Shown here: positions 54,860 to 57,800 of the stretch, piece after piece
Layout of the letters: each line of letters starts with the position of its first letter
How positions within the stretch are numbered: the stretch's first letter is position 1
Assembly: GCA_905250025.1 (NCBI GenBank)
Contig: CAJNOJ010000057.1
Span: 186,001-250,000 of the forward strand
Length of the DNA stretch: 64,000 nucleotides
From: Adineta ricciae
Taxonomy: Eukaryota > Rotifera > Eurotatoria > Adinetida > Adinetidae
Direction: 5' to 3'
The notes under the pieces: generated by a model
What the model saw: the letters and a program-made list of their open reading frames with translations, nothing else
Told to the model about the DNA's origin: nothing
Database searches by the model: none
Position numbers and translations under genes: made by a program

Positions 54860-57800
54860 ATGCTTAAAGTTACCGTTCATAATGCTGAACACATACCCAA
54901 CGTCGAACGTTTTACTAGTGTGGATCCACTGGTTCGACTGATTTTTCAAGGTATGTACGTGTCTAAACTTTACTAAACATATTTATTCATTTCTGTGGGC
55001 GGTTAATGGTGATATAAAAGAGAATAGAGTGTATGAGAGATGTTTTATGATTGATGTAACACAGCGCACACGATGGGTGACGTGAAAAACGATGGAATTA
55101 TGAGAATTATCGTGCATAATGCTGAGAAAGTGCCATTGACCGAACGTTTTCGAGGATCGCCCGATCCCTATGTGAATATTTTTTGTTATGGGATAGTTTG
55201 ATAGTTTCTAATTGAATTCAACGTATTCATTCGTTTTCTTGTCGATTAGGAGTGAAAAAACAAACAAACTGGCAACGCTCAACATGTGATCCCAAATGGG
55301 ATGAAGTAAATCTGACTGCGAGTTTGATTATTTTTTCTCTTATCAATCGGATTTTAGACACTCGATTTCCCGTTGAATGGTGTACCCATTCAAAACAATG
55401 ATATTCTCGAAGTTCAGTTGAAAGATCATGAAACTATTGGGTCAAATAAGTAACTATCGAATGAGTATGAAATTTATCTGTATGCCTCCATTGGATACAT
55501 TATTAGACTCATTGGGCAAAGTACAGTACCATTGAGTGAAGTACTGCGTGTTGGTACAATAAAACGTCGTCTCGTTCAGCTAATGAATCCTCAAGGTGTC
55601 GTTCTCGAAGCGGTAAGTTTCTAAACAAAAGAAGATCTTCTCTATTTTGAACGATAGACGAAACTATACATTACATTGGAATACGTTTCACCTACGGGTG
55701 GTGGAAAAGTACCAACGAATGGAAAAGCCGGTAAGGAAGAATAAATACGAGTATGTGAGTATCGAAGTGTGTGTCTTCTTAGCAACCGATTCAAATCAAT
55801 TCGATGATGTACCACTGCAAAATGGCGGTGACACATCCTGGCAAGCAGATTCTACAGCTGATCTTGCTTTTAAACGACAAAATAAACCACGATCAACAAA
55901 ACCTCAAGATTTTCAAGTGAGTTTAACTATTCATTTTGTTGAAACTTATGAGTGAATTTCAGATTCGAATAAAAATCTTTCAAGCTCGACAATTGGACGG
56001 AAGTAATCTACATCCAGTATGTCGGGTGCGTGTCATTGGAGACGTTAAACAAACAAAAATTCAAAAAGGAACAAATCAACCGTATTTCAACGAAGTCTTC
56101 TTTTTTAATGTTCACATGTCTGAAGCTGAATTGTGTGATGAAATGATCGAATTTGAAGTTTGCAATTCACGAACACTTCGATCGGATATGAAAATTGGAA
56201 CGTTCAAAATGGATATCAACTACATCTATGCACAAGCAAAACATTCCATCAATCGAAAGTGGTTGTTATTGAGTGATGATGATGATAAAATGTCCGGTTC
56301 AAAAGGTTATCTGAAAGTAACAGTAAACATCTTAGGACCAGGCGATGAAGCACCGGTATGACTATTCCATCAATTCGATAAAACAAAGTTTTGTATCGAA
56401 TGTTTTTAGGCGCAAGAAAATGATGGCGATGATGATGATATTGAAAGTAATCTACTAAGACCAGCGGGTCTTATGCTTCGGCCAGCAACGTTTATTCTAA
56501 AAGTATACAAAGCCGATGATTTACCAAGAAGTTCGTTTTGTTCGGAAGAAGAGCTAAACATTGTTTCTCTCTCTTTCGTGATTGTAGTGGATAGTGCATT
56601 TTTGCATGGAGTGAAGAAGATCTTTCATGCTACGGATGATATCAAAGAATTGATCGATCCATACGTCAATTTTTCATTTGCTGGTCAGCAAGTATCATCA
56701 AAAATTGTTTACACATGTTCACATCCGGAGTACAATCAAGAACTTCGACTCGGCCTTAAAGTAAGTTGTTGCGGTCTTTGATCGGATTGCTTTCATTGCC
56801 ATGTAGTTTCCATCAATGTGTGACAAAATTACATTGACTGTTATGGATTGGTAAGTTAACGTTTAGTTTTCATTTTTCTTTCGACTCGATACATCTTGAG
56901 AATATGATTATAACAAACCTGACATGTACAGGGATCGACTACAATTCGATGATACAACGGGCTGCGCTTTGCTTAACATTAATCGATTATGTGATGATCG
57001 AGAAAATGGTACTGATGAATGAATGTTGATTTTGTTTTACTTTTCTATTGCACATTTATATGTTTTCATTCGAATACGAATTCATCATCATTGGTTGGGT
57101 ATTTTGTCTTACTTTTCATTTCATTCAAGGGACAAATTCACGCGTGATGAAAAGGCTGGAACGACTTCTCTTAAGATAATACTTATCAGTCAATTGAGCG
57201 ATAAGGGTATTCATTCTTAGAGTTCGATGCGCTTCGTAGATTGAGACTAGGATTCCATTGATGATTAGATCTGCTGGTATAGAAATGCTTGCTTTTCAAT
57301 ATATGTTTTGCTTTGATGCTGAAGGGATCGGTTTACACACAGCGATATGATTGGTGTTGGTTTAATTGATGTTTTCACGAGAGATAATGGTAGAAATCAG
57401 AATGAATGTGAAGGCATACTGATTCGATTTGTTTTTCAGGTTTTCTACCAACATTTGGTCCAAGCTGGATCAATCTTTATGGTGCGCCACGAGAATACTC
57501 CGATGTTCCGACTGCATTGGACGATCTAAATAGTGGCAAAGTAAGTTGACCAGAAAGAATCACGTTCATAGTTCTGATATCTAATTTTTCCATCGTAGGG
57601 TGAAGGTGTCGCTTATCGTGGTCGAGTGTTTGTTGAATTACAAACCATTCTTGGTGAAACGCCGTCTGAACCAATCGGTGAAATATCAAATTCGGATCTT
57701 GTTCGAGTATTACCATATCAAGCACGTAAAAAGTATAAACTCCATGCCGCATTTCTTGATGCGTGTATGCTATACGAACATGAATCGACGCTGGAATTCG

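Follow-up and report, generated by a model that had tools for sequence, protein, structure and literature searches.

Ferlins function in calcium-driven membrane fusion and repair. In the window, that is, the whole 64-kb stretch of contig C57 (Adineta ricciae, 130 Mb genome) that was analysed, we found a gene that, judged from its sequence, is a ferlin of the dysferlin/myoferlin type (Table 1). The gene model was joined by hand and has 24 exons from 54860 to 60426, cassette 1 (see below) being counted as one of them; one open frame runs through GT-AG introns across all 24. Within residues 1-1026, Pfam detected FerI, FerB, and three stretches of C2, and the best PDB relatives of the C2C part were myoferlin, dysferlin, and otoferlin. 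The assignment was made because of these Pfam domains and the best PDB matches to myoferlin and dysferlin, and it bears out the ferlin named in the preliminary description. Beyond 60426, where frames were read without setting exon ends, more C2-like frames were found, as well as a hydrophobic C-terminal segment from about 63934 that crosses the right edge of the window. The features that mark a ferlin, namely several C2 domains, FerI with FerB, and a C-terminal transmembrane segment, are present, the hydrophobic stretch having been judged by eye without a predictor. The predicted domain 3' of FerI is C2C, in agreement with the third C2 domain of the preliminary description, and exons 10 and 12 have the same numbers in both. 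Ferlin relatives outside this genome were not found in viral_contigs or genome_contigs, neither of which is a eukaryote collection.

Table 1. Features of the ferlin locus and its surroundings (positions in the window)
Feature	Position	Strand	Remarks
SprT-like frame	51295-51831	+	open frame
Glycosyl hydrolase frame	52025-53161	-	uninterrupted, 379 residues
Ferlin gene, dysferlin/myoferlin type (predicted)	54860..64000	+	exon 1a to right window edge; hand-built model
Exon 1a	54860-54950	+	first exon of ferlin gene
Intron stretch, exon 1a to 1b	54951-55072	+	
Candidate exon 1b	55100-55184	+	second possible first exon
Exon 9	56588..56760	+	first half of C2C; aligned to myoferlin and dysferlin C2C
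Exon 10	56807..56850	+	ends MDW with two bases of the Trp codon; donor GTAAGT
Intron between exons 10 and 12	56851-57439		contains the three cassettes
Cassette 1	56932-57008	+	77 nt; weak donor GTACTG
Cassette 2	57130-57206	+	77 nt; strong acceptor, very weak donor GTATTC
Cassette 3	57325-57389	+	65 nt; weak acceptor, weak donor GTAGAA
Exon 12	57440..57540	+	strong acceptor

Ferlin copies in the genome were counted by FerB, and the matches revealed seven, on C57, C88, C196, C103, C184, C101, and C170. C88 is 95% identical to C57 over the region, and C196 is 70-80% identical to C57 in the matching stretches. C103, C184, C101, and C170 carry copies of a second ferlin; in these, the segment that matches falls within a single long open frame. 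Bdelloids show degenerate tetraploidy, and the seven-copy pattern fits this. A search for telomere repeats gave counts close to those of the controls and is uninformative on the host. Six of the seven FerB matches form pairs, and C196 is the one left without a close partner; this partner would be lost, collapsed, or absent from the assembly.

Several observations were made 5' of the cassettes. One open frame outside the ferlin gene matches a SprT-like protease and an HMG box above the Pfam cut-offs, with a sub-threshold SprT zinc ribbon; another matches glycosyl hydrolase family 43 (49.2 bits) and was possibly acquired from another organism. Within the ferlin gene, candidate exon 1b is a paralogue of exon 1a, and the two recall the C2A/C2Av1 pair of human dysferlin, which is made by alternative first exons. 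In the 31 codons from 55100, all six differences between C57 and C88 are synonymous; starting from the upstream in-frame ATG (55073) adds 27 bases with three differences, not all synonymous (by eye). The in-frame junction found for this candidate uses a very poor donor, GTTATG (-2.9 bits), joined to a second AG of exon 2, and the candidate was not seen among the listed C196 frames. In the intron stretch between exons 1a and 1b, only 1 of 122 bases differs in C88, compared with 4-17% in the ten other introns listed; the stretch is perhaps an internal promoter or a conversion tract.

The intron between exons 10 and 12 contains three cassettes. Each is preceded by AG and followed by GT and is entered in phase 2 and left in phase 1, and the same two codons, one for Trp and one for Gly, are completed by all three. 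The intron coordinates, the cassette lengths of 77, 77, and 65 nt, the splice sites, the phases, and the completed codons had all been given in the preliminary description, exactly to the base. In length, phase (2 in, 1 out), and splice type (AG..GT), the three agree with what is required of mutually exclusive exons. We translated all eight inclusion patterns. The three patterns with a single cassette remain in frame on into exon 12, and the other five (none, the three pairs, and all three) reach a stop either in a cassette or in exon 12; joint inclusion or skipping, which in a mutually exclusive cluster should give no functional product, thus leads to early stops in 5/5 combinations. The preliminary description had stated that including two cassettes shifts the frame, which is correct, and zero and three cassettes, which it did not name, also give stops. 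Its further statement that the cassettes must be mutually exclusive holds for the in-frame products, as seen from the eight translations, and does not hold for splicing itself.

To judge these frames against chance expectation, we searched the two strands of the 64 kb for all frames between 47 and 137 nt long that obey the splice, phase, Trp, and Gly rules. There were 60 such frames, 24 on the + strand (the three cassettes included) and 36 on the - strand. The cassettes were each other's best matches, and none of the other qualifying frames reached their mutual similarity. This similarity is low: 7/27, 9/23, and 7/23 residues are identical, the shared Trp and Gly being counted, and the cassettes differ from one another at about half of the bases. 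The available text of PMC3228551 gives three criteria for predicting mutually exclusive exons, namely length, splice pattern plus frame, and similarity [PMC3228551]. The cassettes agree with the first two and partly with the third: at the 15% level used there, with a scoring of our own (fraction of the self score), cassettes 1 and 3 compared with each other lie above the level (0.17, 0.21), and cassette 2 lies below it (0.11-0.14). A scan for other duplicated exons in the ferlin gene covered the introns no shorter than 110 nt, effectively two of them; at the 0.15 level, cassette 3 alone was returned and cassette 2 was missed. We also simulated neutral drift to about 53% identity, with 20,000 runs started from each cassette; the simulation consists of substitutions and ignores indels, and is thus generous to drift. 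When similarity to human C2C at least that of cassette 1 (the least similar, score 29) was demanded, an open C2C-like frame was left in 12, 26, and 46 of 20,000 runs for the three starts.

The three cassettes complete the C2C domain about equally well. The Pfam C2 score is 50.5, 50.9, or 52.0 bits with cassette 1, 2, or 3, respectively, and 37.0 bits with none, a gain of 13.5 to 15 bits per cassette. All single-cassette isoforms align to one common part of C2C in myoferlin and dysferlin. In the alignment to synaptotagmin-1 C2A, the cassette begins at the second Asp of loop 3, and the first Asp (in MD) remains in exon 10; we take the loop-3 Asp residues here to be calcium ligands. A cassette contains loop 3 from the second Asp, the next strand, and the linker thereafter. 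The alignments thus support the earlier proposal that the segment corresponds to loop 3 and the next strand, and place the following linker inside it as well. Loop 3 reads DRLQFDD in cassette 1, DKFTRDE in cassette 2, and DRFTHSD in cassette 3, compared with DRLTKND in myoferlin and DRLTHND in dysferlin. Of the three, cassette 3 most resembles the vertebrate loop. Cassette 1 has an extra aromatic residue and an extra acid. Cassette 2 has both Lys and Arg, and because it has Glu in place of the expected last loop-3 Asp, the three variants are not equal at the predicted binding site.

The arrangement is preserved in both close chromosome copies. C88 keeps the three cassettes in the same order, with all frames open and no indels. 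Compared with C57, it has substitutions at 0/77, 2/77, and 2/65 bases of cassettes 1, 2, and 3, respectively, and at 25/369 bases, plus indels, in the four introns around the cassettes; this deficit is significant for all cassettes (Fisher p 0.009) and not significant, with these small numbers, for cassettes 2 and 3 alone (p 0.09). Both substitutions in cassette 2 are synonymous; in cassette 3, one is synonymous and the other changes Arg to Lys. The resulting 3 synonymous to 1 non-synonymous (one-sided p 0.03) is in line with the 97:12 ratio in the 1202 constitutive codons. A special conservation of the cassette introns (22/330 versus 96/889 in the other introns, p 0.03) was considered and rejected, as the neighbouring introns I8, I9, and I12 change at a similarly slow rate (12/161). 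C196 has a single exon at this spot, closest to cassette 1 (18/27 identical) and flanked by introns of 54 and 50 nt, with no room for further cassettes. Because 7/27 third codon positions are identical between cassettes 1 and 2, compared with 15/27 between cassette 1 and the C196 exon (p 0.051), there is a hint that cassette 2 split off before C57 and C196 did and was then lost in C196. The corresponding value for cassette 3 is 11/23.

Donors were scored with a model built from the other 23 donors of the same gene (leave-one-out). Their median is 6.7 bits, and only that of exon 13 (0.6) lies below 3. The donors of cassettes 1, 2, and 3 score 2.9, 0.0, and 1.7 bits in C57 and 3.4, -0.4, and 1.3 bits in C88, respectively, and the single C196 donor scores 7.8 bits. 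The donor of cassette 2 is equalled or beaten by 46% of 3012 GTs. A weak donor is not unique to the cassettes, because the donors of cassettes 1 and 3 both score above that of exon 13, a constitutive exon. The acceptor is strong in cassette 2 (8.1) and weak in cassettes 1 and 3 (0.8 and -1.1). Each of the cassette donors differs between C57 and C88, compared with 2/23 of the others (p 0.004), and none became strong; these changes suggest loose constraint at the cassette donors. Weak donors would fit regulated exons and also loosened constraint.

We consider it highly probable that the three cassettes are alternative exons derived from tandem exon duplication, and that each productive mRNA includes one cassette and no more. 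The cluster is most probably mutually exclusive in its products. It is unlikely, in our estimate, that only one cassette is functional (cassette 1, as in C196, or cassette 3, with its standard-looking loop) and that the others are old duplicates in decay. Decaying duplicates could have weak donors of the kind seen here, all three changed between the close copies, and the single cassette-1-like exon of C196 as well as the non-significant substitution deficit of cassettes 2 and 3 point in the same direction; yet the three frames are open in both copies without indels, 3/4 changes in cassettes 2 and 3 are synonymous, the gain in the C2 profile is the same for each cassette, and drift to such divergence rarely leaves a C2C-like open frame.

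Another possibility concerns the amount of gene product. As 5/8 combinations reach stops, and as weak donors together with the strong acceptor of cassette 2 could favour misjoining, the cluster might mainly tune this amount through mRNA decay after misjoining or skipping, protein variety being secondary. We regard this as very unlikely, since a single poison exon would presumably suffice and three conserved C2-like versions would not be needed. It is extremely improbable that misassembly produced the repeated exon copies: no observation in favour of it was found, two contigs with 95% identity both carry the same three cassettes in unchanged order, and the cassettes are mutually different at about every second base.

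If the cassettes are alternative exons, tandem exon duplication would have given one ferlin gene three of them, and the reading frame would at least limit the products to one cassette. The mRNAs with zero, two, or three cassettes should be destroyed (NMD) because of their early stops. Weak donors would hand the choice of cassette to regulatory proteins. Each choice would rebuild C2C, but the second half of loop 3 (the calcium/lipid tip), the beta strand after it, and the linker would differ from one choice to another, and lipid or calcium binding may thereby be altered.

Among the usual mechanisms that enforce exclusivity, the frame condition is present. The preliminary description had suggested intron pairing of the docking/selector type. 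We compared whole-intron duplex energies with 300 dinucleotide shuffles for six intron pairs each in C57 and C88, and pairing among the four introns was found in neither copy, 27-92% of the shuffles reaching the observed energy, although a whole-intron test could miss short pairings. A match noticed by eye between ATTCATTCT, 3' of cassette 2, and AGAATGAAT, 3' of cassette 3, was discarded, as it is weakened in C88. The introns between the cassettes measure 121 and 118 nt, and 19/20 other measured introns (the first intron and the cassette introns excluded) are 45-60 nt; hindrance by short introns is thus unlikely. No U12-type sites were seen by eye. Because introns of 121 and 118 nt are long enough for splicing, we saw no physical bar to the joining of two cassettes. 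In particular, the acceptor of cassette 2 is the strongest of the three, and none of the features found here bars the joining of cassette 1 to cassette 2.

As far as the available texts describe them, known clusters of mutually exclusive exons consist, as here, of homologous internal exons that lie side by side, resemble one another in length, share phases and splice type, and code for one and the same part of a folded domain [PMC3228551, PMC5740500]. Joint inclusion breaks the frame here, and according to the accessible part of PMC5740500 the exon lengths point to such a break in 377 (60%) of human clusters. The present cluster differs in that exclusive use is predicted from sequence, selector pairing was not found, the introns between its exons are rather long, inspection by eye revealed no U12-type site, and its exons have low mutual similarity.

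The C2A/C2Av1 pair of human dysferlin involves C2A and alternative first exons, whereas the choice predicted here is internal, three-way, and in C2C. According to the available text of PMC3898210, C2A/C2Av1 splicing swaps part of a C2 domain and changes its calcium-dependent binding. In the accessible part of PMC9333456, exclusion of dysferlin exon 17 is described as shrinking the C2C beta6-7 subdomain to one Val, in an isoform typical of blood. Splicing there affects the stretch of C2C from loop 3 to the GFLPTFGP strand, as it would here, and by our reading of the alignments the exon 17 linker probably occupies the same spot as the cassette linker. In dysferlin, however, one exon is kept or skipped and the linker changes, whereas here there are three alternatives, and loop 3 and the next strand would be replaced too. 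Splice variation of ferlin C2 domains thus already has precedent in human dysferlin C2A and C2C. Drosophila misfire, also a ferlin, has tissue-specific splice forms that differ in C2 number and the TM [PMC1853072]; interchangeable exons, such as the three cassettes here, are not mentioned in the available text. Among the matches listed in our search of the open-licence literature, we did not find a three-way switch that replaces loop 3 of a ferlin, in accordance with the earlier statement that no such switch had been reported in ferlins. The accessible part of a transcriptomic study of A. vaga [PMC12220480] mentions neither "exon" nor "mutually exclusive".

The available text of PMC9333456 describes ferlins as acting in calcium-driven membrane fusion and repair. 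If the switch is real, the gene would provide three natural versions of a single binding tip, whose calcium and lipid binding could be compared directly. It would also extend the splice variation known from C2A and C2C of human dysferlin to an invertebrate, with a choice among three forms. A more speculative and, in our view, rather doubtful reading is that the three C2C tips are paired with either of two C2A starts (exon 1a or candidate exon 1b), for a maximum of six ferlins; the gene would then be a combinatorial membrane sensor assembled by splicing, with differing calcium/lipid preference, and switched with physiological state, e.g., drying and recovery. Membrane repair after drying should matter in a desiccation-tolerant bdelloid, and the three-way switch could relate to drying and recovery.
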